33,350 nt of DNA, taken from Rubripirellula sp. (lineage in GTDB: Bacteria; Planctomycetota; Planctomycetia; Pirellulales; Pirellulaceae). Under the pieces are notes generated by a model. The model saw nothing but the letters and a program-made list of their open reading frames with translations, did no database searches and was not told the DNA's origin. Shown in pieces: positions 1 through 18,075 of this stretch. The first letter of the stretch is position 1. Every line of letters begins with the position of its first letter. Made by a program: the position numbers and the translations under genes. The stretch covers positions 1 to 33,350 of the forward strand of contig JAAXJB010000097.1 in assembly GCA_012270065.1 (NCBI GenBank), written 5' to 3'.

Positions 1-276
1 GTGTCTGCACGCGCTGTGTCTGCACCCGATGATGATGGTATCCAGATGTCTGCCCCGGATGCACCATCGGCCGCCCTGCACCCGCCCATCCTGAAAAGTT
101 CTGATTTGCAGAGGATCACGGGCCAGAATGCTGAGGTGGCTCAGTTACCTCCATTGTTCGTACCGGTGTCGGAGTCTGGGGCAAATTTTACTCGGCCGAA
201 TTCGGAAACTCACGGCCCACGAGACTTTTCGCACCCCAGAATACTTCCTGAAATTGAATTGGAGTTGCAGCCATGA
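1..276 (+). CDS. C-terminal end of an unidentified gene (5' truncated by window)
   Basis: The frame is open from the first base and stops at TGA 274-276, so this is probably the end of a gene that begins upstream. The visible 91 residues are rich in Pro, Ser and Asp, with a repeated SAPD motif near the start, and look disordered. I recognise no domain. Its stop overlaps the ATG of the next gene (ATGA at 273-276), which is the same coupling seen between the following genes. That overlap is the main reason to believe the frame is real and belongs to the same transport operon. The GTG at position 1 need not be the true start. Confidence 0.5.
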   Translation: MSARAVSAPDDDGIQMSAPDAPSAALHPPILKSSDLQRITGQNAEVAQLPPLFVPVSESGANFTRPNSETHGPRDFSHPRILPEIELELQP

Positions 277-1220
277 TGAAGCGAAATGGAAAACGATGCG
301 TGTTCACCGGCAGGAAAACGGTTTTACTGACGACGCAAGTTGTAATTCTGCTGTGTTTCGCGCCTGTGGTGATGGCTCAGACACGGAACCTGCCGTCCGG
401 TCCACGACCAACATCGACCATGTATGAAGGATTCACGATACCGAAGCACGAAATTCTTGTTGCGGCCTCCGAGCTTGGGCGTTTGAAGACCATGGAGGTC
501 AAAGTGGGAGACAAAGTCCGGGACGGCGAACTTCTCGGTAGCCTGGAAGATTCCACGCAAGTTTCCGCGGTTCGAATTGCATCTGCAAAGGCGAACATGA
601 CGGGTGAACTGGAAGCAGTGCGGGCAGAACACAAACTGGCCCAGCTTCGTGTCCTGAAACTCCGGGAACTTGCTTCTGAAAAAATGGCAAGGCCGGATGA
701 ACTTGCCCGTGCTGAAGCGGATCTTGAGATCGCTCAAGGTCGTATGAAAGCAACCGAGGAGCAGATTCTGCTGAACAAGCTTGAACTTGAACGGCATCAG
801 GTTGCTTTAAGGCGACGAAAGATCCTTGCACCCATGAGTGGAATCATCGCTGATGTTCTTCGTCTGCCGGGGGAATATGTGACGCCGGCGGATCCAGCCG
901 TGGTCAGGTTGTTGGTGGTGGATCAGGTTTACGCAGTTTTCAATATCCCCGTGTCGGAGGCCAGCCGTGTGACGGTCAATTCACCCGCGAAGGTTTATCT
1001 GCGGGGTGCACAGCGGACGATCGACGCGGTTGTGAGTACTGTTGCGCCCATGATCGATGGTGAGAGTGGAACGGTCGAGGTGAGGTTGGAGATCAATAAC
1101 ACCGACCATCAAATCAAGTCAGGCGATCGTTGCACGTTGCAGGTTTTTCCACGGCAGGAGCAGGCAAAAAGAGTTCACCCAAAACGTGCGGTCATGGATA
1201 CAGGTTCGGTGAGAAAATGA
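273..1220 (+). CDS. Periplasmic adaptor (HlyD/RND membrane-fusion protein family)
   Basis: This 315-aa protein has an N-terminal signal peptide (basic n-region, hydrophobic core about residues 17-32, likely cleavage after VMA near residue 35). Residues about 59-95 form the first half of a biotinyl/lipoyl barrel-sandwich (VKVGDKVRDGELLGSLED). A Glu/Arg/Leu-rich coiled-coil hairpin follows (about 95-185), then the second lipoyl half (ILAPMSGIIADV) and a beta-barrel region. This is the layout of periplasmic adaptors that bridge an inner-membrane component to an outer-membrane channel. The start ATG at 273 has GGAG eight bases upstream and overlaps the preceding stop. The stop overlaps the next start in the same ATGA fashion, so translation is probably coupled. 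The family assignment is firm; the cargo is unknown. Confidence 0.88.
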   Translation: MMKRNGKRCVFTGRKTVLLTTQVVILLCFAPVVMAQTRNLPSGPRPTSTMYEGFTIPKHEILVAASELGRLKTMEVKVGDKVRDGELLGSLEDSTQVSAVRIASAKANMTGELEAVRAEHKLAQLRVLKLRELASEKMARPDELARAEADLEIAQGRMKATEEQILLNKLELERHQVALRRRKILAPMSGIIADVLRLPGEYVTPADPAVVRLLVVDQVYAVFNIPVSEASRVTVNSPAKVYLRGAQRTIDAVVSTVAPMIDGESGTVEVRLEINNTDHQIKSGDRCTLQVFPRQEQAKRVHPKRAVMDTGSVRK

Positions 1221-2644
1221 ACTCCGATTACTTTGTCGTCAATCCATCCAAGGCGCCAGTTCGCGAACGCGGTGATAATGTCGGTCGGGAACACGATGCT
1301 CTCGTGTCATCGCTCGATCAGGCAATGGACCAACTAAGTCAGGTGGAACGGCAGTATCTGTTGGACAGCGAGCTCAATCTCGAACGTACCTTTGCTGTGA
1401 TCCAGTTGCTTTCAGCCATCGGTAACGCAGGCAGTCGTGCTGCGGCAGTCATCACAGTCGCTGAATTTCTTGCCGAGCATGGTGAAAATGTTCATGTGCG
1501 ATTTGGCATTGGTGCGGAAATTCTGAGGAGTTTTGGAGACCGCCGTTTGGGCTGGTTGAAATCGGAGAGCGCACTCTTTGAAGAATATTCGGGACGTTGG
1601 AATACCACCTCTGAACTGGATTCTGATCAACCCGCAAAGAACGTGTCGGTCACACGGATAAGTCAGGAAGTGGGTATCTTTCTGCAGCAACCCGACGGTC
1701 AGCAGAGAATCGCGTTCTGGATCGAAGGGGACGGAAAGCAATCTGAAAATGCTTTTCGATGGCTGGAGCCAGTCCTGCAGGCAATCGGAGACGTTTTGTG
1801 GAGCAGGCCCAGACGCGACTACTGGAAATGGAAAGGAAAGGTAGGCAGTCGTATTGCACGTATCAGCACGGTTGCAGCTGTGTTGGCTTCGTTGTTTCTT
1901 ATCTGGCCAGTTTCGTATCGCGTTCGTTGTGAAGCAAAAGTTGACACTTATTTTCAACGTATGGTTGCAGCTCCCTTCGACGCAACACTTGAGCAGGCTC
2001 TGGTGAAACCGGGGGAACAGGTCAAGGCCGGACAGGTTTTGATCAGGCTTGACGGGCGACCATTGCGTCTGGAACTGGACGCCGTTGAGGCGGAAATACA
2101 GGAAATCCGCAAAGAGCACGATGTTGCACTTGCAAACCGGCAGATTGCAGATTCGCAGCAACTCGCGCTGAAACGGAGACGCCTCGACCGGAAACGGGAT
2201 CTGATCAGCGATCGGCTGTCAAATCTTGAGATCACCAGCCCAATTGATGGTGTGGTGATCAGTGGTGATCTGGAAAAGTTCATTGGAGCGCCGGTGGAGC
2301 GTGGGCAGGGCATGTTTGAAATCGCACCGTTGCATACGCTTCAAGTTGAATTGGAAATTCCTGATTATGAAATCGGCTATGTGCAGCGGGGTGCAGTGGC
2401 AAGTATCAAACTGGATGCCATCGGTGGACAGGCCATGACCTTGAAGATTGAAGACATTCATCCCTCAGCCGAACTGAGAAATGATCAGAACGTGTTTATC
2501 GCGAAGGTCCGGGCTCAGAATCACGATGGGGCGTTGAGACCGGGAATGCTTGGAAACGCTACGGCTTATGGACCCCTGCGGCCGAGAATCTGGTCACTGG
2601 TAAGGCCTGCATGGGAGCGTGTGCTTTGGTGGGTGGGATATTGA
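1217..2644 (+). CDS. Membrane-anchored HlyD-type adaptor with GAF-like N-terminal domain
   Basis: The start is ATG 1217, overlapping the upstream stop (ATGA), which gives 475 aa; an in-frame ATG at 1130 would extend into the previous gene and was not used. Residues about 50-205 form a predicted globular, cytoplasmic region with a GAF-like pattern. A single membrane segment lies at about 212-232 (STVAAVLASLFLIWP). Behind it is an HlyD-like module: lipoyl half (VKPGEQVKAGQVLIRLDG), a coiled coil rich in Arg and Glu, second lipoyl half (EITSPIDGVVISGDL) and a beta-barrel ending in LRPGMLGNATAYG. The orientation suggests a cytoplasmic sensor domain joined to a periplasmic adaptor. The HlyD part is firm; GAF is inferred from pattern only. 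It sits between a soluble adaptor and an M50-adaptor fusion, in one operon. Confidence 0.85.
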   Translation: MNSDYFVVNPSKAPVRERGDNVGREHDALVSSLDQAMDQLSQVERQYLLDSELNLERTFAVIQLLSAIGNAGSRAAAVITVAEFLAEHGENVHVRFGIGAEILRSFGDRRLGWLKSESALFEEYSGRWNTTSELDSDQPAKNVSVTRISQEVGIFLQQPDGQQRIAFWIEGDGKQSENAFRWLEPVLQAIGDVLWSRPRRDYWKWKGKVGSRIARISTVAAVLASLFLIWPVSYRVRCEAKVDTYFQRMVAAPFDATLEQALVKPGEQVKAGQVLIRLDGRPLRLELDAVEAEIQEIRKEHDVALANRQIADSQQLALKRRRLDRKRDLISDRLSNLEITSPIDGVVISGDLEKFIGAPVERGQGMFEIAPLHTLQVELEIPDYEIGYVQRGAVASIKLDAIGGQAMTLKIEDIHPSAELRNDQNVFIAKVRAQNHDGALRPGMLGNATAYGPLRPRIWSLVRPAWERVLWWVGY

Positions 2645-2672
2645 CGCTAATGCCATCAGTGGAGACAGGTTC

Positions 2673-5207
2673 GTGAACAAACAAGCCGGTGACAATCCAG
2701 ATCCGGATCACGGAAGCGATGAGTCCAGACGATCCACTGGAACCGGGGTCAGCATGATGACTGATTCCTCTTCCCGTTATGCCATCGAATCCGAGGTTAT
2801 CTTTCTGCAGCGACATGAAGCAGGAGAAAGCTTTGTCGTTGCGAAGCATATGGCACGATCAACCTATTACCGTCTTGGGATGGAAGAGTATCAGGTTGCC
2901 CGCCTGCTGACAGGGACTCGATCTGCACAGGAAATTGTGGCAGAGCTGCGTAACCGGGGTATCGAATGGAAAATCGCGGAGGTTGCGGAACTCATCGGCT
3001 GTTTCGTTTCCAGCGGTCTTGCGAGTCTGCCTCAAGGACAGCAAGAAGATCTGATGACATCGCTTACCATGTCGGAGGTAGAGCAACAGCGTTTCTCAAG
3101 AGAATCATCGCGCGGCTCGGAAACCACCGCGGCGACGCCCGTTGTTGAAACACCGGATGCCGTGCGTCAGCGTGCTCCGAATGAACCCGAACCAGCTGAG
3201 TACCTGCCTCGTCGCCATCGAAAGAAGAGTGAGCCGGCGTCAGTCGATTCAGATGGGCAAGCGACAGACGGATGCCAGGCTGGTATCGATGTTCCTGACT
3301 CGCCCAGGCAAGACGCCGAAACGGAAAAATTGTCACCCGAATCACCAAGTGCCTCGTGGGTTGAATCGGACCAGCCGCGACAGAAATCTCGTTTTCAGGA
3401 TTCCAGAAATTCAAAAGGAATCTGGTATCGACGCCTGGTGGCTGCTCTGTCTTTGATTGTTTGCCAACGTCTGTCACTCGTGGATGGTGATCGCATTGCC
3501 CGCTGGTGGAATGCAAGGCTGGGGGTCGTTTTTAGCCACAAAGGATTCGTGGCTTGGCTGCTGCTTGTGGGTAGCGGAATATCGCTTGTCGTTTCGTGCC
3601 GACGGCAATTTGCCGACGAGTTGACATCCATTTTCAATCCTGATCTTTGGGTGATGCTTCTGACACTGTGGGTGTTCGCAAAGGTTTGGCATGAACTGGG
3701 TCATGCTATCGCCGCCCGGCACAATGGAGTGCGTGTTGGTAAGGCTGGCGTGTTGTTCTTTTTTCTAGCGCCTTTGCCGTACGTGGATGTCACGGATACA
3801 TGGAAATTGAGCAGTAAATGGAAGCGAATTCAGATCGGGCTTGGTGGTGTTTATATCGAATTGGCTCTGGCCGCCATCGCAGCATGGGTTTGGTGGTTCA
3901 CGCCTGGAACGCTTGTTGGACATTTGGCTGCCCAATTCTTTCTTGTCGCGGGGCCTGGCACTCTATTGGTCAATGCAAACCCGCTTCTTCGACTGGATGG
4001 GTATTACGTTCTGTCCGACCTGACAGGGATCTCTAATTTGAGAATGCATGGTCGAAGGCAACTTGCCAGCCTGACAAACCGATTGCTCATGCGTACCGAG
4101 CCTGTTCAGAGCCTGTTGAAAGGCTGGAGATGTCCCTTTGCAACCTGTCACGCATTCTTGAGTGTGATTTTTCAGTGTGTTTGGATGACAGGACTGGTGG
4201 TTGCGATTTCCTCCTGGATGAGGGGGCTTGGTCTTGTCGTGGCAATGGCAGCAATCTGTCTTTGGTGCATCCTGCCTTTGGCTGCCTGGGTTCGCAGAAT
4301 GTGGCATTATCAGGCAGACACGGCTTGGCAGTTGACTGTGCAGCGACTGCGACTGTTTTCACTGGCCGCTCTTGCTGCATTTGCTTTGAACTTCCTGATG
4401 ACAGATGCCTCGCCTTGGAAGAGACGCATTCCGGTCGTCGTGCAGAATCGCGCTCCGCAGATCGCCCGTGCCATGGCTGATGGTATGGTCAAAGCAATTC
4501 ATGTGAACTCTGGACAAAAGGTATTGCCCGGTATGCTCTTGCTTGAGCTGGAGAATCCCGAGTTGGACATGCAGCGTAGTGATCTGGTTGATGAGTTGGC
4601 GATCGCGGAGAGCAAGGCCGTGCAGTATCGCCGCATGAGCAGGATATCCCAAGCTGCTGCCGAATCCGGTAATGCCGCCAGTCTGCGACGACGCATTGCA
4701 GAATTGGATGAGCAAATCGCAGGAATGAAAATCGTGGCGGAACGTACTGGATATGTGCTCAATCCTGACCTGCTGCTACTCAAAGGATGCTATGTGAAGA
4801 TGGGGCAGGAACTGTTTCGAGTCATGGATCCGGAGCAGAAAGAACTACTTGCATCCGTTGCGCCCGCGGACCTTCTGGCTTACCGTCAGGCGGCTATCAA
4901 TGGCACACCGGTTTCAGTTCGCCTGCGTGGTGGCGATCGATTCCGTGTGCAGCCGACAGAGCTGCAGCCCCGTGCCCGGCGAAAAGTTCTGCATCCGACT
5001 CTGGCAGCCACATCAGGTGGACCGATTCCCGTGGAAAGTTCGGAGGACGCTGCATCACGGCTTCAGGCCCTTCAGCCACAGATGATGGGTGTGATTCCAA
5101 TGGACTCATGGAGCAGTGGCCGTACTCGCGACGGGCAGATCGGGGTGATGACAATCACCGACAATCGATCTGTGTTCTTTCGGATTCTCGAGCACCTCGA
5201 TCTTTAA
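2673..5207 (+). CDS. PqqD-like / M50 site-2 protease / HlyD-like fusion protein
   Basis: From GTG 2673, which has GGAG upstream, the protein is 844 aa; ATG 2754 is an alternative start. Residues about 36-120 resemble the PqqD/RRE winged-helix fold (LTGTRSAQEIVAELRNRGIE), followed by a polar linker of about 120 residues. Membrane helices then carry the zinc motif HELGH (His340, Glu341, His344) and the second S2P motif NANPLLRLDG (Asn434 to Asp442), so the protease core looks intact. More helices follow, then a periplasmic HlyD-like lipoyl and coiled-coil region from about residue 590. Such proteins are often named putative peptide zinc metalloprotease. PqqD-like domains bind leader peptides in RiPP (modified ribosomal peptide) systems, so a peptide cargo is an inference. 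The gene closes the adaptor operon, and a 20-base tandem repeat covers its stop. Confidence 0.87.
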   Translation: MNKQAGDNPDPDHGSDESRRSTGTGVSMMTDSSSRYAIESEVIFLQRHEAGESFVVAKHMARSTYYRLGMEEYQVARLLTGTRSAQEIVAELRNRGIEWKIAEVAELIGCFVSSGLASLPQGQQEDLMTSLTMSEVEQQRFSRESSRGSETTAATPVVETPDAVRQRAPNEPEPAEYLPRRHRKKSEPASVDSDGQATDGCQAGIDVPDSPRQDAETEKLSPESPSASWVESDQPRQKSRFQDSRNSKGIWYRRLVAALSLIVCQRLSLVDGDRIARWWNARLGVVFSHKGFVAWLLLVGSGISLVVSCRRQFADELTSIFNPDLWVMLLTLWVFAKVWHELGHAIAARHNGVRVGKAGVLFFFLAPLPYVDVTDTWKLSSKWKRIQIGLGGVYIELALAAIAAWVWWFTPGTLVGHLAAQFFLVAGPGTLLVNANPLLRLDGYYVLSDLTGISNLRMHGRRQLASLTNRLLMRTEPVQSLLKGWRCPFATCHAFLSVIFQCVWMTGLVVAISSWMRGLGLVVAMAAICLWCILPLAAWVRRMWHYQADTAWQLTVQRLRLFSLAALAAFALNFLMTDASPWKRRIPVVVQNRAPQIARAMADGMVKAIHVNSGQKVLPGMLLLELENPELDMQRSDLVDELAIAESKAVQYRRMSRISQAAAESGNAASLRRRIAELDEQIAGMKIVAERTGYVLNPDLLLLKGCYVKMGQELFRVMDPEQKELLASVAPADLLAYRQAAINGTPVSVRLRGGDRFRVQPTELQPRARRKVLHPTLAATSGGPIPVESSEDAASRLQALQPQMMGVIPMDSWSSGRTRDGQIGVMTITDNRSVFFRILEHLDL

Positions 5208-5231
5208 ACTAGAGCACCTCGATCTTTAAAC
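5190..5231 (+). repeat. 20-bp direct tandem duplication across the M50-fusion stop codon
   Basis: The 20 bases at 5190-5209, GAGCACCTCGATCTTTAAAC, recur exactly at 5212-5231, separated by TA (period 22). The TAA stop of the M50 fusion lies in the first copy, and the second copy is untranslated. It looks like a recent slippage duplication. Confidence 0.95.
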
Positions 5232-5843: not shown

Positions 5844-7166
5844 TCACTTCACAGTGATTTCGTTCAAGTTTCCTGTGTTGGAAGCGAAGGTGTCCGTTTC
5901 GACTCCAAGGTTCTGCAGCATGGTCACGAACAGATTGCAGAGTGGCTGGTTGCGTTCGCGGCTGAACGCGAGGTGTTGGCCATGGCGGAAGCCGCCGCCG
6001 GCCAGCAGGATGGGAAGATTGGTGGTGTCGTGAATGTTCGCGTCCCCGAGATTGCTGCCGTAGAGAACCATGGTGTTGTCCAAAAGTCGCTGACCATTCT
6101 CGGGCTTGGCCGCGAAGTCATCGATGAGCTTTCGCAGTTGTATGAGATGTTCCCGGTCTGCGGCCTTAAGCTGCCGCAACTTCTCCTCGTTCTGGCCGTG
6201 ATGGCTGAGATTGTGGTAGGTGGTGGTTGTCTCTTCCTGGTTAGGCAGGCGTAAGACCGGAGCGCGGAATGAATCCACGATCAGCGTAATGATGCGGGTC
6301 GAGTCGCTCTCGAAGGCAAGCTGTGTCATGTCGAGCATGAGTCGAAGCTGGTCGAAGAATCGCTTGTTGTCGCCGATGTCCGCAGGCGGAGATCGGTTCG
6401 TCTGCGGCTTCGGTCGCTGCTCCCATTCGCCGGCAGTAAGCAGACGCTGTTCCACCTCGCGCACCGAGGTTAGATATTGATCGAGTCGCTCCCGGTCGGC
6501 GGCGGGCAACGTGCGATTGAAACGCCTGGCTTCGAGGTTGAGCGTGTCCAGAATGCTGCCGCGCCGGCGAAGGCGATCGAGTTGACGTTGCACGTCGCCG
6601 GGGGCGCCCTGAACAAACATCTTCCGAAACACGTTCGCCGGGCTGGTTTCAGGTGGAAGCAGGACTCCGTCACGCGTAAACGAGAGGCTGCGTTTCGCCG
6701 CCTCACTCGGTCGAGTGACGCCCAGATTCAGTGTGCGAAATCGCGTCGACTGGGGAAGTTGTTCGGCTGCGAATTGATCCAGTGAGACCGTGTTGCGAAA
6801 GCCGAATTTGAACGCGCCCGGCGCGGCCGTTAGGAAGCAGTTGTCGGTGCTGTGCGCGCCATCCACACCGGGATGGGATAGACCGCTGAAAACGGTGAAT
6901 TCGTCGCGCACGTCCGACAACAATTCAAGATACGGCGAGGGCTTGTAGTCTCGCCCCGTTCCTGTCGGCGCGAAGTACTTCGGAAGGAGACCGAGATTGT
7001 TGACGATCACGAGCATACGCCGCGGTGCCACGACCGGTGTCGCCGCGCGGACCAAAACCGGACGCATGCATTCCAGTGCCGGCAGGGCGAGACTGACACC
7101 CATACCCCGTAGGAATGCACGACGCGGCAGACGTGATGAGGCGGTGGAAATGTGTGGTCCGTTCAT
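5844..7166 (-). CDS. DUF1552 Tat-exported protein
   Basis: This 440-aa protein starts with a twin-arginine signal (RRAFLRGMG, residues 15-23) followed by a hydrophobic stretch, so it is probably exported folded. The rest matches DUF1552, a planctomycete-enriched family: MLVIVNNLGLLPKYF near residue 50, the DGAHSTDNCFLTA segment, a central RRRGSILDTL helix, and a C-terminal NTMVLYGSNLGDANIHDT segment like that of sulfatase/DUF1501-type folds. The start ATG overlaps the stop of the upstream DUF1592 gene (ATGA, 7163-7166), so the two are coupled. The biochemical role of the family is not established; association with the partner cytochrome is inferred from constant gene pairing. Length and motifs look intact. 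Confidence 0.9.
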   Translation of the reverse strand: MNGPHISTASSRLPRRAFLRGMGVSLALPALECMRPVLVRAATPVVAPRRMLVIVNNLGLLPKYFAPTGTGRDYKPSPYLELLSDVRDEFTVFSGLSHPGVDGAHSTDNCFLTAAPGAFKFGFRNTVSLDQFAAEQLPQSTRFRTLNLGVTRPSEAAKRSLSFTRDGVLLPPETSPANVFRKMFVQGAPGDVQRQLDRLRRRGSILDTLNLEARRFNRTLPAADRERLDQYLTSVREVEQRLLTAGEWEQRPKPQTNRSPPADIGDNKRFFDQLRLMLDMTQLAFESDSTRIITLIVDSFRAPVLRLPNQEETTTTYHNLSHHGQNEEKLRQLKAADREHLIQLRKLIDDFAAKPENGQRLLDNTMVLYGSNLGDANIHDTTNLPILLAGGGFRHGQHLAFSRERNQPLCNLFVTMLQNLGVETDTFASNTGNLNEITVK

Positions 7167-9703
7167 TGATTTGCCATCCCTTGGTTTGCTCCCAAAAAGA
7201 TCCTGCTATTTATCAGCGCCATCATCAGGTCGCGTACGCGGTAATCATTGTTGGCGCAGGCATCCAGTATTGACTCGATCTCGGCCCGATCTCCGAAGCG
7301 AACAGGCGTGCCAGTGGCGTAAACTGTGAACTGGTTGAGAAGATTGCGAGCGATTTGACGCGAGTCGTCCCGTAGCAGAGTCTTCAGGTCGTGGATGTTG
7401 TCAAACTGGCGACCATCGGCGAGCCTACCGCTGGCGTCCACTTTCGATGCGATCGTGTAGCTGAAATCGTGGCCGGCGCGGTCGATGCCGGACACGCGTC
7501 CTCCTGCTTCCAGGCCGCGATAGTGTGCACGCCATGCACCGAAGACATCGAAGTTTTCCAGCGCGAGACCAACGGGATCGAACTTTGCGTGACAGCCGGC
7601 GCATGTTTTTGATGCGGTGTGTTTGGCAATCAGTTCCCGAATGGTTTGCGCGCCACGGATGTCAGGTTCGACGGCAGGGATACCTGGAGGCGGCGGCGGT
7701 GGTGGCTGGCCGATGAGGCGGTCCATGATCCAGACGCCGCGCAGCACAGGCGAGGTGCTGGTGCCGTCCGCGGAAAGCTTCAGAACGGACGCCTGCGTCA
7801 GCAATCCGCCATAAGGGCTGCTCCTCGGCAGGTCAACACGCTGCAAGTTGGAACCTTTCACTTCGTCCAGTCCGTAATGCCTTGCGAGGCGATCGTTCAC
7901 GAAGGCAAAGTCTGCGTCAATCAACGAATCCACGGGAAGATTTTCGCGAATCATCGTCGCGAAAAAAGCTCGGGTCTCACGGCCCATCGACTCGACAAGG
8001 TAATCATCCAGCCGATACTCCGGATAAAGGCGAACGTTGGGGTCATCCCGGCGCAGCTCGCTCAGGTTGAGCCAGCTATTGGTGAAATGTCTGACGAAGT
8101 GATCAAAGCCGTCGCCCGCGATGAGACGTTGCGCTTGTGCTCGAAGCGTTGTCGGATCACGCAGTTTCTGGTCCTGAGCAAGCATGATTAGTTCTGCATC
8201 GGGACGCGAGTTTGTTAGAAAATGCGATAGCCGGTTGGCAATCGTGAAATGATTGTCGCTCGTCATCGGCTCGCGCAGGTACAGAGAAAGATTGGAGCAG
8301 AGAAACGCCTGATAACCGGACTGCAAGGCCTCGGCGAGCGCCTCGCCGCTGTTCAGTTCTCCTAGAATAAGTTCCTCAAATGGTGCGATGGCCTCCTCCG
8401 GCACGGGCTCACGCGCGGCAAGCTCGATGAAACGGCGTAGAAGCCGTTTGGCTTCTGCCTGCGGATTATCTGATTTCACTTCAACGCCAAGGTCATCAAA
8501 CAGCACACGATGCGAGGCGGGAGGCCACGTTTCTGGCGAGAGGGGACCTTCAATCTCGAGCCACTGGAAAGCGACGCCCGGCTGCCCGCCTTCCGGGAAG
8601 GGTGGGTAACGGTAGTACCCCGTTTTCCCCAGTGCGTCGATCTGTGGTGAGGGCAGGCCAAGCAGCCCGTATTCGATCGTCTGCCCCTCCTGCAGGTACA
8701 CGACTGTTTCGTAGACACGTTGCTCTGGCAGAATGTCGATGATGCCGCCCGTGGGTCGTACGTTCTCAGCAATGTCGTGGTTGGTTGGTTTGCGGGCACG
8801 AAACGTCATCGGCACCGAACGCGTGCCGATCTGCAGCACAAAGTCTTTCAGTTGCACCACAGAACGTGCGGAGAAACGAACACGGTATTCCCCCGATGTG
8901 TGAGCGATCACTTTGTCAGGCCACAGTGCGTATGGCCATCCGGGTGATCGAAACAGAGCCAATTCAACCGATGGATCCGGTTCATTTGTCTGCCCTTTCG
9001 GAGGTGATCTTAATTCGAGGTCGATACCCTTTGAGTCACGAGTAAAGAATAATGATTCCCTGCCGCCAGCGAGGTACCATTTGGAGGCCAACTGTTTGCC
9101 TTCGACACGGAGTTTTTCCACCGGTGGTGGATCCTTGGTGGAAACGATGGCTGAAGAAAGAGCGATTTCCACTGCATCGAGATACGCCATGAGTTGCAGA
9201 CGCGACATGTCGAGCGAGCTGGAAACCTTGTCGCAATGATGGCTTTGGCGGTCGTGAGGCAAACGGTCGAGAATGTCGAGATGCGGAAGGTGCAGGAGGT
9301 CACGCAGGTTCTGTTGGAACTCGATGCGGTTCAGACGACGCATCGGACCTCGCCCGCTTGTGGCAATTTTCGCGAGGTCTGCTGCCGCGAGAGGACGGCG
9401 CAATGCCGTGACCATCAATGCTCTTTCAGACTCGGGCAAGTCATTCGGGGTGGGCGGCATCTCCCCCTTCATAATGCGATCGTGAATTTGAATCCAGCGA
9501 TCCTGTGTGGCGCGATCCTCAAGATCAAAATCCAGCGAAGTCAGGTCCAAGTTACCTTTCTTGGACGAACCGTCGTGGCAGCCAACACAGTTCCGCTCCA
9601 ATAGTGCAGCGGCCGGCGCTGGAATCTCATCGGCATGCAGCACCGATGTGGCGAGCAGTAGGCCAAGAAAGAGTGAGAACGTGGATTGCATGATGGGATG
9701 CAT
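7163..9703 (-). CDS. Planctomycete cytochrome with PSCyt1 and DUF1587/1592/1588/1585 domains
   Basis: This 846-aa secreted protein has a signal peptide (hydrophobic about residues 8-22, ending in LHA). A c-type heme motif CVGCH (Cys39-His43) lies in a PSCyt1-like module. Then comes the DUF1587-type segment (MRRLNRIEFQQNLRDLL) and a carbohydrate-binding-like beta region (about 180-390). The DUF1592 and DUF1588 regions follow (NRLSHFLTNSRPDAEL; LTQASVLKLSADGTSTSPV). A second heme motif, CAGCH (Cys701-His705), precedes DUF1585 at the C-terminus. Domain order and length fit the family. It is transcribed toward the DUF1552 gene with a 4-base overlap. Electron transfer or polysaccharide-related oxidation in the periplasm is a reasonable inference, but substrates are unknown. 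Met5 is an alternative start. Confidence 0.9.
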   Translation of the reverse strand: MHPIMQSTFSLFLGLLLATSVLHADEIPAPAAALLERNCVGCHDGSSKKGNLDLTSLDFDLEDRATQDRWIQIHDRIMKGEMPPTPNDLPESERALMVTALRRPLAAADLAKIATSGRGPMRRLNRIEFQQNLRDLLHLPHLDILDRLPHDRQSHHCDKVSSSLDMSRLQLMAYLDAVEIALSSAIVSTKDPPPVEKLRVEGKQLASKWYLAGGRESLFFTRDSKGIDLELRSPPKGQTNEPDPSVELALFRSPGWPYALWPDKVIAHTSGEYRVRFSARSVVQLKDFVLQIGTRSVPMTFRARKPTNHDIAENVRPTGGIIDILPEQRVYETVVYLQEGQTIEYGLLGLPSPQIDALGKTGYYRYPPFPEGGQPGVAFQWLEIEGPLSPETWPPASHRVLFDDLGVEVKSDNPQAEAKRLLRRFIELAAREPVPEEAIAPFEELILGELNSGEALAEALQSGYQAFLCSNLSLYLREPMTSDNHFTIANRLSHFLTNSRPDAELIMLAQDQKLRDPTTLRAQAQRLIAGDGFDHFVRHFTNSWLNLSELRRDDPNVRLYPEYRLDDYLVESMGRETRAFFATMIRENLPVDSLIDADFAFVNDRLARHYGLDEVKGSNLQRVDLPRSSPYGGLLTQASVLKLSADGTSTSPVLRGVWIMDRLIGQPPPPPPPGIPAVEPDIRGAQTIRELIAKHTASKTCAGCHAKFDPVGLALENFDVFGAWRAHYRGLEAGGRVSGIDRAGHDFSYTIASKVDASGRLADGRQFDNIHDLKTLLRDDSRQIARNLLNQFTVYATGTPVRFGDRAEIESILDACANNDYRVRDLMMALINSRIFLGANQGMANQ

Positions 9704-10195: not shown

Positions 10196-10672
10196 AATGG
10201 TGGGCAACAGAGCTGCGAGGAGTCACCGGAGGAATCAGAAAAGGCGAGTATGCAAGTGTCTGCACTTCTGTGCTACCTACTACAAACCAGCCAAGGGCCC
10301 CCACTTGGACTCACACTTCGCCCGGACTCACAGCTCGTCCGGATTTCCTAATCGTTAAACCCGACTTGACTGGCTTTGTTCTCTCAACCGGATGCACCCG
10401 CAGGACCGTGCAGTTGCACATCGTCGATGCGCTAGATTCACTCATCCGAAGCTGATCAATGTGGCGATTGTTCCACCTGTACGGGTGATTGCTGTCGCAA
10501 CGGTTCTTTTGAAAAGACGGGCACAATCGCATCCGTGTCGTGTGGCATGGCTGCGAAGCAGATGGACGCTCTACCCGGTATGGCAGCCATGGCTTCTGGG
10601 GCTCCGGAGAGATCCGGGGCTGAATGAAGCTTCTGGAAGGACCAACATTTGGAACCAGCAGAGGAAAAAGAG

Positions 10673-12532
10673 ATGCTTGGCAAGTGGTCTCGTGGAAAGG
10701 GTCATCAATCGTCCTCTTGGCACGCAGGGTTTCGGGGACCGGATGCAGCTATCGGATGGCTTCATGCTCGTGGCTTGGCCTGTTGTCTGGCAGCGGCTGC
10801 GATGGTCGTGTCCGGTTGTGCTTATACCGGTGGCGTGAAGGAATACATCGACAATGGATTCAAAGTCGGCCCGAACTACGCCAAGCCCGTCGCTCCGGTA
10901 GCCACCAGTTGGATTGACGAATACGACGATCAGATCAAGTCCGAGCTTCCGAACTATGCGGACTGGTGGACAACCTTCAATGACCCTGTCTTGAATGGGC
11001 TGATGGAGGAAGTTTCCAGACAGAACCTGACGCTCAAGTCGGCCGGTTTGCGGGTCATGCAGGCACGTTATATCAGGGACATCACAGCGGGAACTATTTT
11101 TCCGCAACAGCAGCAGGCCGTTGGTTCTTATCAAAGGAGTCAGTACAGCGATACGATCGCCGCTGGCTTGTTGCCTCGGAATACCGATCTGTTCAAGGTC
11201 GGATTTGATTCATTCTGGGAACTGGATGCATGGGGAAAGTTCCGGCGTGCCATCGAATCGGCTGATGCCAGCCTCGACGCATCGGTAGAGGATTATGATG
11301 CGATTCTGGTATCGCTGCTTGGTGAGACTGCCATTGCCTATGTGGATCTGAGGACAGCTCAGGAAAGACTGCGGTATGCCAAGGCAAATGTGGAGATCCA
11401 GAAAGGTTCTCTGAAACTTGCCAACCTGCGTTTTGAGGCGGGTGCAGTGAGCAAACTGGATTCGACTCAGGCGGAGACCATTCTGGCAAACACGCAGCAG
11501 TTGATTCCTCTCTTTGAAAACCAGGTGCGTGCCGCCAACAACAGTCTTTGTGTTCTGTTGGGGATTCCCCCGCGTGACTTGAGTGATCAGCTTGGTGACG
11601 GTTCCATCCCTGACTTGCCAGCAGATCTGGTGGTCGGAATTCCAGCCAACCTGCTGCGGCGTCGTCCAGACGTTCGAGCGGCAGAACGCCGTGTGGCGGC
11701 TCAGAGCGCGGCAATCGGTGTGGCAGCCGCTGATCTGTTGCCGCACCTGTCGGTGACAGGTTCTGTCTCTCTGAATGCCAACGATTTTTCGGACCTGTTC
11801 GATTCAAGCAGCTTCGGTGGGGTGATCGCTCCTGGGTTCACCTGGGACATTCTGAATTACGGCCGATTGGCTAATAACGTCAATTTGCAGAAAAGCCTTT
11901 TTCAGGATCTGGCTGTCCAATACCAGCAAACAGTGCTGAGTGCCAATTCCGAGGCGGAGACAGCGATCAATACTTTCTTGAAGTCCAAGCAGCGTCTGAT
12001 ATTCGTCGGACAGGCCGTGACTGCATCGAAGCAGTCAGTCGATTTGGCTCAAACGCAGTACAAGGAGGGATCGGTTGACTACAACCGCGTCTTCAATCTG
12101 CAGACATCACTTGTTTCAGACCAGGACAATCTGGCAAGCGTAAGAGGTGAGGTAGCTCGCAGCGTGATCGCGACTTACAAGGCACTCGGGGGGGGATGGC
12201 AAATCCGGTTCGGAAATCGCGGAGGTGGCGGCGTATCACTGGAGCAGGTTCCTGTCCCACCAGCAGAACAGGCACCGTCACAGGAAGCAGACAATTCAGC
12301 CCAGCAGGACAGCAAGCAACCGACCGCCGGGAGTGAGGCAAGTGCTGCGGATTCCCCTCAGGCAGAAGCCCCCAAGTCTGAGCCGGTCGGTGACAATGTC
12401 GACCAGCAAGGAAAAACGGGGCAGCCTGCCGGTGATGTCGATCCTACGAAGCAGCAGGTGTCGGGAAAGCCCGTCTCGGAAGTTGGTGATCCAGTAAGTG
12501 ACTTGCCCGAGGTCTTGGTCGAAAATCTTTGA
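10673..12532 (+). CDS. Outer-membrane efflux lipoprotein (TolC/OprM, NodT family)
   Basis: I chose ATG 10673 because AGAGG lies upstream at a good distance; a TTG at 10649 would add eight residues. The 619-aa protein has a long basic N-terminus, a hydrophobic stretch and a lipobox VVSGC (Cys49), so it is probably a lipoprotein. NodT-family features follow: VGPNYAKP, WWTTFNDPVLNGLM, FWELDAWGKFRRAIESADA, then after the repeat boundary LLRRRPDVRAAERRVAAQSA and ITPGFTW-like APGFTWDILNYGR. About 110 Gln/Pro/Ser/Glu-rich residues extend beyond the usual end, likely a disordered tail. No adaptor or pump gene is adjacent. The nearest candidates on this strand are the adaptors at 0.3-5.2 kb, so I infer it may serve them. 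Confidence 0.9.
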   Translation: MLGKWSRGKGHQSSSWHAGFRGPDAAIGWLHARGLACCLAAAAMVVSGCAYTGGVKEYIDNGFKVGPNYAKPVAPVATSWIDEYDDQIKSELPNYADWWTTFNDPVLNGLMEEVSRQNLTLKSAGLRVMQARYIRDITAGTIFPQQQQAVGSYQRSQYSDTIAAGLLPRNTDLFKVGFDSFWELDAWGKFRRAIESADASLDASVEDYDAILVSLLGETAIAYVDLRTAQERLRYAKANVEIQKGSLKLANLRFEAGAVSKLDSTQAETILANTQQLIPLFENQVRAANNSLCVLLGIPPRDLSDQLGDGSIPDLPADLVVGIPANLLRRRPDVRAAERRVAAQSAAIGVAAADLLPHLSVTGSVSLNANDFSDLFDSSSFGGVIAPGFTWDILNYGRLANNVNLQKSLFQDLAVQYQQTVLSANSEAETAINTFLKSKQRLIFVGQAVTASKQSVDLAQTQYKEGSVDYNRVFNLQTSLVSDQDNLASVRGEVARSVIATYKALGGGWQIRFGNRGGGGVSLEQVPVPPAEQAPSQEADNSAQQDSKQPTAGSEASAADSPQAEAPKSEPVGDNVDQQGKTGQPAGDVDPTKQQVSGKPVSEVGDPVSDLPEVLVENL

Positions 12533-12564
12533 TCAGGCAGGCACTCACTGAGGCACAGGATGAA

Positions 12565-13191
12565 ATGAAAAGCGGATGTTTTGAAACGGGAATGGATATC
12601 GTGATGATTTTTACGAAACATGGTGCCGCAGCACTGCTTGCAGTGATGATGCTTGTCAGCAGCTCGAACGCCGTCGAGCCATGCCGGACGTTTTTCGGGT
12701 GTCCCGTTCCGGATTGCATTGGCAAGTGGTGTTGCGATGATTACCGTGCCAAGTGTCCGCCATGCGTCAAAGTGCCTTTGTGTTTTGGCTGTGATGACTA
12801 CTGCAGAAAACCATCACCGCGGGTGTGTGTGCCCCTCTGTTTTCGCTGTGATGATTATTGCAGGAAATGCCCGCCACCGGTTTGCCGGCCACCCTTGCTG
12901 CTGTCAGTTCCGTGGGAAACCTGTCATGACGCGTGTGATTGCCAGAAAAAAACAGTGCTTGGGAAAAAACAAATTGGTCATGAAAATCGCACGGTGGCTG
13001 CAAAAGACCAACAGGCATTGTCTGATGCAGGAAGCGGACTTGAGAATTCGTTTCGTGTGATCGATTCTTCTTCTGATTTGAATCAATCGAGAATGGGCCG
13101 TTCCGTACAGCCCGTGGTGGGGTTTCGGAGTCCATTGATTCCGGAAACGCCCTCCAGGAACCCGGTATTCATTGAACGCGTTGATCGATGA
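12565..13191 (+). CDS. Secreted cysteine-rich protein with three 19-residue repeats
   Basis: Start ATG 12565 (AGGA just upstream) gives 208 aa; ATG 12604 is an alternative that gives a cleaner signal peptide. A hydrophobic stretch ending in SSSNA suggests export. Residues about 57-113 are three repeats of exactly 19 residues, each opening with CDDY and followed by Arg/Lys, Pro and Cys (CDDYCRKCPPPVC in the third). About 20 cysteines fall within some 80 residues. The rest is polar and featureless. I recognise no characterised family; metal binding, disulfide cross-linking or a surface role are all possible. It follows the outer-membrane factor by 32 bases, so the two are probably co-transcribed, which makes it a candidate cargo or accessory. 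Confidence 0.75.
   Translation: MKSGCFETGMDIVMIFTKHGAAALLAVMMLVSSSNAVEPCRTFFGCPVPDCIGKWCCDDYRAKCPPCVKVPLCFGCDDYCRKPSPRVCVPLCFRCDDYCRKCPPPVCRPPLLLSVPWETCHDACDCQKKTVLGKKQIGHENRTVAAKDQQALSDAGSGLENSFRVIDSSSDLNQSRMGRSVQPVVGFRSPLIPETPSRNPVFIERVDR
12733..12903 (+). repeat. Three 57-bp in-frame repeats encoding CDDY modules
   Basis: Units begin at 12733, 12790 and 12847 with an exact 57-base period. Each opens TG(C/T)GATGA(T/C)TA(C/T). The DNA has diverged more than the protein, mostly by silent changes, which suggests the repeats are kept for their amino-acid pattern. Confidence 0.85.
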
Positions 13192-14673: not shown

Positions 14674-15993
14674 TCAAGCCGCGCGACGGAATTGTCCATC
14701 CGATTCCGATTCTGAGTCCTGCGACTCAGCGTTCCTGATAGAAAGGATCGGATTGGACTCTGATGCTTCCCCTCTGTCGGCGGGCGGTGACCATTGGAAG
14801 CCCAGTAATTGCCCGAGGCGACTTCGCCTGACCAGACCCTCGTAGGTCAGCAACGAAACGCCGCTGGAGATTGCAAATGAAAAAGTAGTCTTGAGCAGCG
14901 GGTTTGTATCGGGGAGGAGCAGCTTCAGGTCCAGTTGGGTGAGGCCCAGAAGCGGATGGTGAACGATGTACACCCAGAACGAAGCAGCCGCCAGATAGCC
15001 AACAGAATTCGGAATCCTGGAGATCTTTTTGACTGAGATTCCGATCAAAAACAGGGTCGTCAACAACGCGGCAACCGCCGTCAATGTCGCCAGCAAAACT
15101 CCTGCCAGCATCGAACTGGCCTGTTGGGTTGGATCAGGAGAACTCGCCCATTGTGCAAGTTGCCATCGTCCCATCAACAAGGCTGCGATCCCAGTCATCA
15201 AAGCAGGCGCTGACAAACGTGTCGCCCACTGCCTGACCTGCATCAGTTTGGGATCGTGAATCGCAAGCAGCAGACCAAGTGTGAAAAAAATGCCGCTGTA
15301 AAGCCACTTGGCGGGAACGGGTAAAAATGAATGTTGAAACCCCCAAACAACCTGGGGCTCAAAGTAAAGCACAGCGGAGGAAGCTACAACGGTCAGAATC
15401 AAGGAAGTTCTGAGGTCGGGCTGAAAGCCTTTGATCCGTGGATACCGTCTGGTCAGGAGGGCAAGGCCTGTCAGGCAAGTGATGTAAAGAAACAGGTACT
15501 GCAGAAACCACAGGTGACTCAAGCCCCAGAGATTCTCGCCCAGTGGAGGGTCCACTTTCAGGCTCTTCAGTTTGACGGGAGAGACAAGCCCCTCGGCAAC
15601 CCAACTGCCAACCCAACAGTAAAGATCCAGTGGAAGGATCACCACAGCGCCAAACAGAAGTGGTACCAGCAACCTTCGGGCGCGTCCGCGAAAAAGCGAG
15701 CGAGGTCCGCGTTGCTTCAGCGTTCGCCAAGCAAAAAATCCTGCCAGAACCAGAAACAACGGCATGATGAACAGCTCGATCGACCAGAACAGAAGGTCGA
15801 TCGCAGTATGCGGTGTGTCGGCTACCGACCAGCTCAGGCCCGGCATCGGATGACGCAGATACGGAACGCATGCGTGCAGCAGCACGACACCCAGGGCGGC
15901 AAACGCGCGGAGGGCATCCAGCCCGGCAAAGTTGGAACGTGTTGAGGAGGCGGCGGTCGCTGAATCAGCGGCGCGGAGAGGTAGTATGTCCAT
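14674..15993 (-). CDS. Acyltransferase-3 family membrane protein
   Basis: This 439-aa integral membrane protein has about ten hydrophobic segments. The family signature GLDALRAFAALGVVLLHA with its catalytic-type His occurs near residues 24-41, followed by a polar loop with RRLLVPLLFG and a second HP-containing segment (WVYIVHHPLLGL) near residue 345. Members transfer acyl groups from the cytoplasm to surface polysaccharides, glucans or other extracellular acceptors. The middle (GLSHLWFLQYLFLY) resembles glucan succinyl-transferase (OpgC/MdoC) relatives. The substrate cannot be told from the sequence. The C-terminal 40 residues are Ser/Glu/Asp-rich. Neighbouring genes give no clear pathway; it is separated by 136 bases from the FAD oxidoreductase. 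Confidence 0.85.
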   Translation of the reverse strand: MDILPLRAADSATAASSTRSNFAGLDALRAFAALGVVLLHACVPYLRHPMPGLSWSVADTPHTAIDLLFWSIELFIMPLFLVLAGFFAWRTLKQRGPRSLFRGRARRLLVPLLFGAVVILPLDLYCWVGSWVAEGLVSPVKLKSLKVDPPLGENLWGLSHLWFLQYLFLYITCLTGLALLTRRYPRIKGFQPDLRTSLILTVVASSAVLYFEPQVVWGFQHSFLPVPAKWLYSGIFFTLGLLLAIHDPKLMQVRQWATRLSAPALMTGIAALLMGRWQLAQWASSPDPTQQASSMLAGVLLATLTAVAALLTTLFLIGISVKKISRIPNSVGYLAAASFWVYIVHHPLLGLTQLDLKLLLPDTNPLLKTTFSFAISSGVSLLTYEGLVRRSRLGQLLGFQWSPPADRGEASESNPILSIRNAESQDSESESDGQFRRAA

Positions 15994-16105
15994 GATCTCT
16001 GCTGACTACCAAAACCACGCCATTTTCTGAAAGTGCAATGAGTTGTTTTTCAAAATGGAGAAGGGCGAAGACTGTCCGATGATAGCAATGCTGTCGTCGG
16101 GCATT

Positions 16106-16141
16106 CCCTTTTCAATTCAGGTGCCCTTTTCAGTTCAGGTG
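16106..16141 (-). repeat. 18-bp tandem duplication across the FAD-oxidoreductase stop codon
   Basis: On the + strand CCCTTTTCAATTCAGGTG (16106-16123) is followed directly by a copy with one mismatch (16124-16141). The oxidoreductase stop (TGA, complement of 16130-16132) lies in one copy. Because 18 is a multiple of three, the other copy supplies a second in-frame stop. Confidence 0.93.
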
Positions 16142-17302
16142 CCTGATGAGTGGTGTCGCAAGTTTTGGAAAAGCCGCCAAGGTTGTGCCAGCTACCCCTC
16201 TGATCCAACCGGACCTCAAGGCACCGGTGACGATCCGGCAGGTCCACTTTTGTCGCCTCAGCAGAATTTTCAGTTCCTGATTCCAGCGGTCGCCAATGGC
16301 GGCAAGCTGACTTTGACCTGCCTGTTCCAGGCAGGACCCGATCATGTCTGCGGCGGCGATTCCACTTTTCAGTCCCCAGGTCATGCCTTCGCCAGTGAAC
16401 GGTTCGACATAGCCGGAGGCATCCCCGACAGTCAGAATTCTGCCAGAGCCGGCAAGACGCGTTCTTCGCAATGGGGGTGTCGTCATGACCTTTGACATGT
16501 CGTTCCATTGGAAGTCGGGAAAACGGCTGCGTTGGAGAATCTGCTGCACACGATCTGCCGGCGTGCCCCGTTGGGCCGCGTCTGAACCTGATCGGAGTGC
16601 AGCGGCAATGTCGACTCGGCCACTTTCCAGTCGAACCAGTCCAACGTATCCGTCGTCGTCACATGCCATGTAGATCACATGAGGAAGAAGCTCATCATTG
16701 TCGGCAGTCCATGACACCCCGAATGGTCCATGAGGAGACTCGGTCCATGGCAGGACAGAGTTGACACCTTGCGAGTTCAGCCCTGTGGCCAGCACGACAA
16801 CATCGAATTCGAGTTCTTCGATGCTTCGTCCTGTTTGCAGGTTGACGCGGATTTTGCTGGAGTCAATGTCGGTGATGCGGGCCTTGCAAGGCTGTCTGAC
16901 GATACATCCTGCATCCTTCGCTGCCTGCAGCAGAATGGGGTCCAGAGTCGAACGTGAGATCGCGAGGCCACGTGGCAGGTTGACCTCGAGCTTGCGTCCA
17001 CCCATCGATGCATGCCAACCCGTCAACGCTGTCCCTTGGGTCATGATCTGCTGAAAGAGCAGGTTTTCCGTTTCCATGGTGAGATCTCCGCCGACTTTTG
17101 CCGGCTGTGTCCTGATTGGCATCGTGCCCAACTGCTTGAGTGTTTCAAGACCTGCACCGCCAAGACAGCACCCGCATACCTTCTCCCGTGGAAATTCTGC
17201 TTGCTCGACCAGCGTCACCTTGACCTTTTGTCCGCACAGGCGGATTCCACAGGCACTGCCGGCAACGCCGGCTCCGATGACGAGCACAGAGGTTGGTTTC
17301 AT
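16130..17302 (-). CDS. FAD-dependent oxidoreductase (geranylgeranyl-reductase-like)
   Basis: This 390-aa protein opens with an FAD-binding Rossmann motif GAGVAG (residues 10-15) and an acidic residue ending strand 2 (Glu33). Next comes PREKVCGCCLGGAG (38-51), a motif of the geranylgeranyl reductase and halogenase-like monooxygenase group. The second FAD contact GDASGYVEPFTGEG is at 293-306. All expected FAD motifs are present and the length is normal. The start ATG overlaps the stop of the methyltransferase gene (ATGA, 17299-17302), so the two are coupled. In other bacteria this gene pair commonly flanks a type III polyketide synthase making alkylresorcinol-type lipids. None is seen here, so the substrate is open. 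Confidence 0.85.
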   Translation of the reverse strand: MKPTSVLVIGAGVAGSACGIRLCGQKVKVTLVEQAEFPREKVCGCCLGGAGLETLKQLGTMPIRTQPAKVGGDLTMETENLLFQQIMTQGTALTGWHASMGGRKLEVNLPRGLAISRSTLDPILLQAAKDAGCIVRQPCKARITDIDSSKIRVNLQTGRSIEELEFDVVVLATGLNSQGVNSVLPWTESPHGPFGVSWTADNDELLPHVIYMACDDDGYVGLVRLESGRVDIAAALRSGSDAAQRGTPADRVQQILQRSRFPDFQWNDMSKVMTTPPLRRTRLAGSGRILTVGDASGYVEPFTGEGMTWGLKSGIAAADMIGSCLEQAGQSQLAAIGDRWNQELKILLRRQKWTCRIVTGALRSGWIRGVAGTTLAAFPKLATPLIRHLN

Positions 17303-18075
17303 GTCATGGATGTTCCCGAGGACGGGATTGCCCGGGCAAGTGAAGGGATTGCGTCTTGCACTGCAACCTCGTCAATGGTTGCGATGAAGCGGCAGGGGAA
17401 GAGACGCTTGATTTTGGTGGAATGTCCCAGTGCTTGCTGCGAAATGGTTTGAAACTCGGGGATGGTAAAAGCGCCCTGAACGCTCAGTCTGGCGTCCGTG
17501 TGGACCACCTTGGAACGTGACAGCAGTCTGCTTGCGACCGTGACAAGCGCCAGGTTCAGATGGCTCCTTTCAAGATCACAGACCAGAACAGTACCGTTGC
17601 TTGCGGTTCGCATCGCCTGTAACAGTTGACTTGCCTGATGATTCTCCAGATGGTGCATGAAGAGTGAACAGGTCACCATGTCGAACCCTGACGGCAGTGG
17701 ATTTTGAAGACAATCGTGCTGCAGTGAATCCACCATCAGACCGGCTGCTTTGGCCCGACGTTGTTGTTCTTCCACGGCGACCGAGCGCACGTCCAGCAGT
17801 GTCAATTGAAGTTCCCAGCCCTCGTGTTTGGCCCAGGTAGCCCATCTCAAGGGAAGTGCCCACGAACAACGGGCAACGTCGAGGAAAGTGAGTTTTCGAT
17901 CACGACGACCCATCGCTATCCGCTTGATCCGACGGTACATCGCTGACGCCACGCCGCTGCAGCGATTCAATCGTGCCAGGCCTCGCAAAGCCGCTTCGTG
18001 ATCATCCCGCGGTAAATCGGGATCATCCATCAATTCCGGTTGCAGGTTCCGTGTCCTGAGGTTGAAGTCGGGCAA
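17299..18075 (-). CDS. Class I SAM methyltransferase-like protein with altered motif I
   Basis: Start TTG 18075 keeps the family's usual N-terminal sequence (LQPELMDDPDLP, then ALRGLARLNRCSG), so I prefer it to ATG 18030. The 258 aa align in outline with methyltransferases found beside type III polyketide synthases. Motif II (LLDVRSVAVEEQQRRA, 93-108) and the later FDMVTCSLFMHHLEN (131-145) are recognisable. The SAM-binding motif I, normally a glycine-rich D-V-A-x-G-x-G-D-V-P, reads LDVARCSWALP at 65-75 and has lost its glycines. The frame is otherwise intact and coupled to the FAD oxidoreductase. The enzyme may therefore be impaired, or repurposed as a partner protein. Confidence 0.75.
   Translation of the reverse strand: MPDFNLRTRNLQPELMDDPDLPRDDHEAALRGLARLNRCSGVASAMYRRIKRIAMGRRDRKLTFLDVARCSWALPLRWATWAKHEGWELQLTLLDVRSVAVEEQQRRAKAAGLMVDSLQHDCLQNPLPSGFDMVTCSLFMHHLENHQASQLLQAMRTASNGTVLVCDLERSHLNLALVTVASRLLSRSKVVHTDARLSVQGAFTIPEFQTISQQALGHSTKIKRLFPCRFIATIDEVAVQDAIPSLARAIPSSGTSMT

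Follow-up and report, generated by a model that had tools for sequence, protein, structure and literature searches.

The closest described relatives of the locus considered here are those of Kamneva, Poudel and Ward (2015; PMC4452313), in which, in the sections of the paper covered, genes for M50/HlyD, HlyD/biotin-lipoyl and GAF-HlyD proteins lie together with a secondary SecA_DEAD ATPase and sometimes an OEP protein. SecA was proposed there as the ATPase and M50 as the membrane pore of a system whose role was called 'completely unknown', no ABC (ATP-binding cassette) transporter having been identified; those sections name no substrate, and the words PqqD, adhesin and cadherin do not occur in the main text. 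In one library of open-licence papers we found no cargo assigned to this type of locus and no description of a PqqD/M50/HlyD system, and the passages on LEPR-XLL proteins covered there draw no link to an M50-HlyD locus. Here we analyse a cluster from Rubripirellula sp. in which two HlyD-type adaptors precede a fusion of PqqD-like, M50 and HlyD-like parts, located at the left end of a 33,350-base stretch of DNA (the window: bases 1–33350 of a 47,609-base contig, JAAXJB010000097.1, in a 7.0-Mb genome, the left edge being the end of the contig). The cluster very probably belongs to a bacterial export machine that has received little study. Position and co-occurrence suggest, as the new element here, that giant LExR-x-LLS/DUF4347 proteins are its candidate cargo.

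What we observe is the anatomy of the cluster, its linkage to the giant genes and the conserved catalytic residues of the protease; export, cleavage and the motor are what we infer. On balance we favour, with some reserve, the reading in which the cluster serves as an exporter for giant adhesin-like proteins of the LExR/DUF4347 kind, by means of the PqqD-like domain, a SecA-like ATPase, the M50 protease, the adaptors and an outer-membrane channel, with a part for cyclic di-GMP (c-di-GMP).

Giant proteins linked to the cluster

The window was compared with ten orthologous loci and with 79 loci whose open reading frames (ORFs) were labelled using profiles built from clusters; a genome scan from a single sequence yielded no confirmed match. 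Duplicates (L049, L050, L052, L053, L070 and L096) were removed before counting, leaving 29 loci of the window's type; in these labels Lnnn denotes a locus, Gnnn a genome (G000 being the window's own) and Gnnn:Cnn a contig. The 29 fusions form one clade with support 1.0, and the trio that the initial annotation had thought might be fixed across genomes, both adaptors and the fusion, is complete in all 29, so that the grouping is not a matter of chance. The loci of the nearest relatives come from Rubripirellula and other Planctomycetaceae/Pirellulaceae, and since the closest pair of fusions is 96% identical the 29 loci are not independent.

The giant genes were recognized by an N-terminal LExR pattern, which was widened after a narrower one missed LFS/LYS variants; all counts use the wider pattern. 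Where an OEP (TolC-type channel) gene is in view, it has a head-to-head neighbour with a motif of the LExR-x-LL type in 12 of 26 loci of the window's type and in 15 of 26 siblings. The motif is found in 28 of the 497 ORFs that reach 400 residues, and 24 of these are head-to-head with a channel gene, two lie directly downstream of the M50 gene (L092, L094) and two are elsewhere (L059, L072). One further giant, in L071, has the looser motif LEDRVLL with no S or A after it, and is outside the 12. Several of the ORFs beside window-type loci are giants, with open frames of 7,102 to 10,579 residues in four genomes, and the four window-type giants scanned for domains carry DUF4347 after the motif, plus laminin-G, cadherin-type and other domains. 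In whole-protein scans with the LEPR-XLL model (NF012209) three of four window-type giants fall just under the cut-off and the fourth is not listed, and several exceed it in genome scans. Over the first 60 residues of 11 aligned giant stretches (start codons assumed) the best 15-residue hydropathy mean is 0.45–1.33, with no strongly hydrophobic run, unlike a Sec signal peptide.

The same association is seen across whole genomes. In a phylum sample of 149 Planctomycetota genomes, LEPR-8K, a model of only 24 positions, matches 11 and M50-HlyD 32, with both present in 11 (11/11); in 250 Burkholderiales genomes the figures are 42, 49 and 36 (36/42). Fisher tests, which ignore kinship, give p = 9e-9 and 2e-26, respectively. 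Of the 91 LEPR matches in the Burkholderiales, 25 have an M50 match no more than 20 kb away, in every case on the same strand. The six Burkholderiales genomes with LEPR-8K and no M50-HlyD have frames of at most 507 residues; we counted them as misses and suspect chance matches. As for the four genomes behind the non-planctomycete loci, LEPR-8K is present in the three Burkholderiales, and in a control set it matched one of 14 genomes (Deinobacterium chartae). A second N-terminal model, A6, which combines the motif with DUF4347, was run on 18 genomes and matched in 17, the match in 15 of these genomes starting at model position 10 or earlier and so covering the motif.

The best A6 match in the window's own genome belongs to those 15: a gene on G000:C63 (L166:8188–14973) encoding 2,261 residues, with the motif LESRILLS (a variant not listed by NF012209), DUF4347, eight cadherin stretches and a C-terminal segment common to many complete giants. 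Downstream of it, at 15167–17602, is a PAS-GGDEF-HD gene for a predicted c-di-GMP enzyme. In G012 a giant stands beside the channel cluster (L039) and has a gene of the same GGDEF-HD kind behind it (L147), so that across genomes position links giant, GGDEF-HD gene and cluster, even though the window's genome keeps them separate.

The shared C-terminal segment has the form S..Y..W..RG...P.W...DP, and its S, Y, W, R, G, P, W, D and P do not vary among 13 aligned ends, which come from both Planctomycetota and Burkholderiales. A profile from nine ORF ends (two of them from the same gene) also matches L080, L092, L094, L103 and L107 at 6.2e-16 or better, and M50-HlyD is present in 14 of the 15 Burkholderiales genomes that have the segment. 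In L059 and L072 the ORFs with the motif are complete but do not stand head-to-head with a channel gene, and their ends are different. With a best 21-residue hydropathy of 1.3–1.9, the segment is a borderline case for a membrane helix; no helix was detected in the giant of the window's genome by a scan over 19 residues at a threshold of 1.6, and scans of three C-terminal ends gave no NCBIfam or Pfam family over its cut-off.

Several observations weigh against giants as the cargo. The giant on G000:C63 is on another contig than the window's cluster and is unlinked to it. Even with the looser motif, 13 of 26 window-type loci have no adjacent LExR giant; ten of these 13 have a GGDEF-HD-type membrane gene of about 800 residues head-to-head instead (PAS-GGDEF-HD by Pfam in eight, and by N-terminal likeness in L061 and the cut L059), and three have neither. 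M50-HlyD genomes that lack LEPR-8K number 21 of 32 in the phylum sample, 13 of 49 in the Burkholderiales and 9 of 60 among near relatives, the window's genome included (M50-HlyD in 60, LEPR-8K in 51); likewise the Chlorobium genome of L111 has M50 and SecA and gave no LEPR-8K match. G014 holds the cluster and has no A6 match, and G013 matches only the DUF4347 part; in G013 and G027 the matches that are listed start later than position 10. G003 and G027 have A6 matches with no window-type fusion among the matches listed, and A6 is therefore not confined to genomes with this type of cluster. The C-terminal segment was seen in only one of the 149 phylum-sample genomes, the window's own, and is therefore not a universal mark. 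Finally, no SecA gene lies in any of the 29 window-type loci. The cluster might only retain or release the giants, or have several cargoes, and either would weaken the claim.

As a side observation, the M50-HlyD/SecA loci L111 and L112 (Chlorobiaceae) lie downstream of a giant ORF with about 1,695 residues in view, its start being beyond the locus.

Organization of the cluster

All features of the cluster lie on the forward strand. Adaptor 1 (gene A, 273..1220) is a membrane fusion protein of the HlyD/RND (resistance-nodulation-division) type with 315 residues, matching TIGR01730 at 120.8 bits (cut-off 94.9) with PF16576 and PF13437 also over cut-off; a Biotin_lipoyl match in the adaptor protein stays at 14.6 bits against a cut-off of 22.1, with the HlyD domains above theirs. 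Adaptor 2 (gene B, 1217..2644; 475 residues) has an N-terminal alpha/beta domain, one hydrophobic segment and a C-terminal HlyD part in which both HlyD_3 and HlyD_D23 exceed their cut-offs, and the best structural match of its model is MacA. The alpha/beta domain is GAF-like by topology only, with no GAF protein among the 50 Foldseek matches listed; of the window protein and two siblings scanned, a GAF match (8.4e-6) appears in the homologue of L098 and not in the window protein or the homologue of L046. Gene C (2673..5207), with a GTG start and a possible ATG at 2754, encodes the fusion of 844 residues. The sequence has ATGA overlaps at 273–276 and 1217–1220 and a 28-base gap at 2645–2672 between genes B and C, so that the arrangement described in the initial annotation is borne out, as are its domains by the scans.

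The gene upstream of adaptor 1 (1..276) is cut by the contig end. Its frame is open from there, its TGA (274–276) overlaps the ATG of adaptor 1, and only a C-terminal tail of 91 residues is left. In all 26 window-type loci that are intact at this point, an OEP gene precedes adaptor 1 (the window, L037 and L064 end at a contig edge), and Pfam confirms OEP in the seven window-type channel proteins scanned. The tail aligns with that of the L036 channel at a score of 75 (200 shuffles: mean 35, maximum 64), and with the cut upstream gene of L037 at only 34, within the shuffles. The truncated gene is thus most likely an outer-membrane channel of the OEP/TolC type, an identity that, since the alignment works for L036 and fails for L037, rests mainly on gene order.

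The initial annotation had remarked on the lack of an energy-providing pump. The 332 ORFs of the 29 loci were scanned crudely, by motif and size and without a positive control; no ABC, RND or MFS (major facilitator superfamily) gene was found in the operon, and so also no ABC exporter with an adaptor as in type I secretion. As far as the orthologues tell, therefore, a channel gene takes the place just outside the window where that annotation had considered an ABC or RND gene. A classical pump was rejected as an explanation: ABC-type ORFs were flagged in three of the 29 loci (L056, L059 and L061, that of L056 being PF00005), all downstream and on the opposite strand, and three large ORFs outside the cluster with many membrane-spanning segments belong to other families (O-antigen ligase in L066, cytochrome oxidase in L071, sodium symporter in L069).

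The central part of the fusion matches Peptidase_M50 (PF02163) at 40.1 bits, over the cut-off of 27.2. H340, E341 and H344 of its HELGH motif (3690..3704) are invariant across 11 orthologues, as is the second catalytic motif, NPLLRLDGY (3978..4004), except for one position that is Y or F. Among 79 related ORFs, which include the near twins L095 and L096, HExxH is present in 78 and DGY in 79. In the AlphaFold2 model, built with 36 aligned sequences (mean pLDDT, the predicted local distance difference test, 80.7), the N-terminal domain has three strands and three helices; a linker modelled with low confidence leads from it to a helical membrane part, and an adaptor forms the C-terminus. Motifs and model together predict HExxH and the second DG motif within membrane helices, as in peptidase family M50. 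The C-terminal HlyD-like domain (4419..5204) scores 28.5 bits with HlyD_D23 (PF16576), just under the cut-off of 30, and its fold supports the HlyD identity, with MacA, MexA and AcrA among the Foldseek matches.

The PqqD-like domain of the fusion, a leader-binding fold at about residues 38–120 (2784..3032), is less apparent from the window alone, whose N-terminal region has no Pfam PqqD match and no phmmer match. PF05402 matches seven of 25 homologous N-termini at E-values up to 10 (best 7.6e-8), and a joint profile of these N-termini has PqqD (3g2b) as its best solved structure with E = 1.4e-4; above 0.01 the same profile also gives TfuB1, PqqC/D and TbiB1 among unrelated rows. N-termini of window-type and sibling fusions align at 98.8% probability, and in the model residues 42–113 form three strands and then three helices, although no PqqD chain is among the 50 Foldseek matches listed for the whole fusion. 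Profile and predicted topology therefore support a fold of the PqqD/RRE type (the recognition element of ribosomally synthesized and post-translationally modified peptides, RiPPs), as the initial annotation had proposed; that it binds the LExR motif is our proposal.

SecA-like genes

All 13 genomes tested have SecA-like genes elsewhere in the genome, and 11 of the 13 hold a window-type cluster. The SecA-like genes have frames of about 590–800 residues (and one cut frame of 309), and most genomes also have one of about 1,240–1,330 residues, which from its length we take as the canonical SecA. In sibling clusters SecA sits between channel and adaptor, for instance in L046 of the window's own genome (G000:C8), where the order is OEP, SecA, adaptor, adaptor, M50. 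An orphan SecA-like gene is present at G000:C52, and others are near DUF4347 matches at G000:C37, G005:C160 and G020:C358, so that SecA would fit as the motor. At the first of these (L146, 2–4894) a DUF4347 gene is divergent from a gene for 320 residues and the SecA-like gene, and the contig has no M50 match; the neighbours in the other two are similar, with no M50 beside SecA among the matches listed. In the window clade, SecA may act in trans.

Separately, we note two more M50-HlyD clusters in the window's genome (L046, 2–17455), one of them with SecA and a head-to-head LEDRILYS/DUF4347 gene that is cut by the contig end.

Proposed pathway and alternatives

In the pathway that we propose for the giants, the PqqD-like domain, placed in the cytoplasm, would recognize the N-terminal LExR-x-LLS region, which lacks a Sec-like hydrophobic core, and a SecA-like ATPase, in trans in the window clade, would push the chain. 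The M50 domain may cleave the cargo, the cut falling either just after the N-terminal motif or within the hydrophobic segment that is conserved at the C-terminus; the HlyD domains and the TolC-type channel would conduct the chain to the outside, and c-di-GMP might control display or release. More tentatively, and as something we would regard as possible and not as our expectation, this could be a dedicated pathway unlike the numbered bacterial secretion systems: the PqqD-like domain would capture giants marked at the N-terminus (LExR-x-LLS) and, in many cases, at the C-terminus by the membrane-like segment, a second SecA would drive them, and an M50 protease that is also an adaptor would cut them inside the membrane and hand them to TolC, with c-di-GMP in control.

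The alternative that survives best, though we think it unlikely, is that the giants cross the membranes by another exporter, and that the M50 fusion and adaptors form a Lap-like device confined to holding, trimming or releasing them, with c-di-GMP as the control. The GGDEF-HD genes that adjoin giants and cluster would fit such a role, and the conserved hydrophobic C-terminal segment would be a possible M50 target. Against it, no ABC exporter was found in the operon, the few nearby ABC-type ORFs (3/29 loci) being on the opposite strand, and in siblings SecA has its place between channel and adaptor. Improbable to a somewhat greater degree is efflux of small molecules or metals with an unlinked pump, the M50 part serving regulated proteolysis of an unrelated envelope protein. 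Adaptor 1 does score best with RND-type adaptors, and the solved-structure matches are MacA, MexA and AcrA, but three adaptor units and a fused protease kept throughout the clade, together with the linkage to giant genes, argue against it. Least probable of all, and rejected as the principal explanation, is the RiPP-like peptide exporter of the initial annotation, in which the PqqD-like domain would read a leader, M50 would cut and the product would leave through the adaptor domain: the PqqD fold is supported and the NCBIfam models closest to the M50 part are those of RiPP proteases, but these match far below their cut-offs (NF041824, daptide, 148.4 bits against 300; NF058609, YydH/LiaK, 40 against 225), no maturase was noticed in the neighbouring genes scanned (a scan that did not extend to small precursor ORFs), and position and co-occurrence favour giants.

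If giants are the cargo, the locus type reported in 2015 with a 'completely unknown' role, as quoted above, gains a named cargo, whose open frames reach about 10,000 residues, together with candidate signals and a protease open to testing, and SecA-plus-M50 would join the small set of modules that feed a TolC-type channel.

Neighbouring genes

A second OEP channel gene, a candidate partner of the cluster, lies at 10649..12532 on the forward strand (PF02321, 1.1e-37); genes 75% (L036) and 72% (L037) identical to it lie downstream of the same trio. An ORF of 220 residues overlaps its end by four bases (the pair spanning 10649–13191), with two unrelated genes upstream of the pair, and is also kept behind the channel in L037 (44% identity). 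Between trio and second channel, on the opposite strand (5844–9703), are two large genes that we take to be a planctomycete pair of the DUF1552/DUF1592 type. A near-perfect tandem duplication of about 20 bases, with agcacctcgatctttaaac occurring twice, surrounds the fusion gene's stop codon (about 5189–5231). A gene of about 350 residues follows the fusion in several loci of the Stieleria/R. baltica type (L056, L058 and L061), that of L058 belonging to the endonuclease/exonuclease/phosphatase family.

Comparison with known systems

The initial annotation saw here an unusual, perhaps undescribed, exporter. Its anatomy is borne out and no classical pump was found in the operon. The system is not wholly undescribed, since the same trio with a SecA-like ATPase appears in PMC4452313. 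Like that SecA/type-I-like locus, the window has an HlyD adaptor and an M50-HlyD fusion with no ABC transporter identified; it differs in the window clade's lack of a SecA gene in the locus (0/29), in an OEP gene at every uncut locus (26/26) and in the giants proposed here as cargo. The GAF-HlyD protein described there corresponds to adaptor 2 as regards HlyD, with a GAF match in the L098 homologue only.

A second comparison is with type I secretion of giant adhesins of the LapA/SiiE type, which likewise combines an adaptor with a TolC-type channel, a giant repeat adhesin as cargo (proposed in our case) and c-di-GMP genes nearby. In contrast to it, the window's operon has no ABC ATPase that we could find, has a fused intramembrane protease, and would handle cargo with a conserved N-terminal motif. 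The RiPP M50 proteases (daptide, YydH/LiaK) share a related M50 core with the fusion, which lies far below their family cut-offs, carries an HlyD domain and has no peptide biosynthesis genes noticed nearby. The LEPR-XLL proteins (NF012209) and DUF4347 (PF14252), finally, are the known families whose N-terminal elements are present on the candidate cargo.

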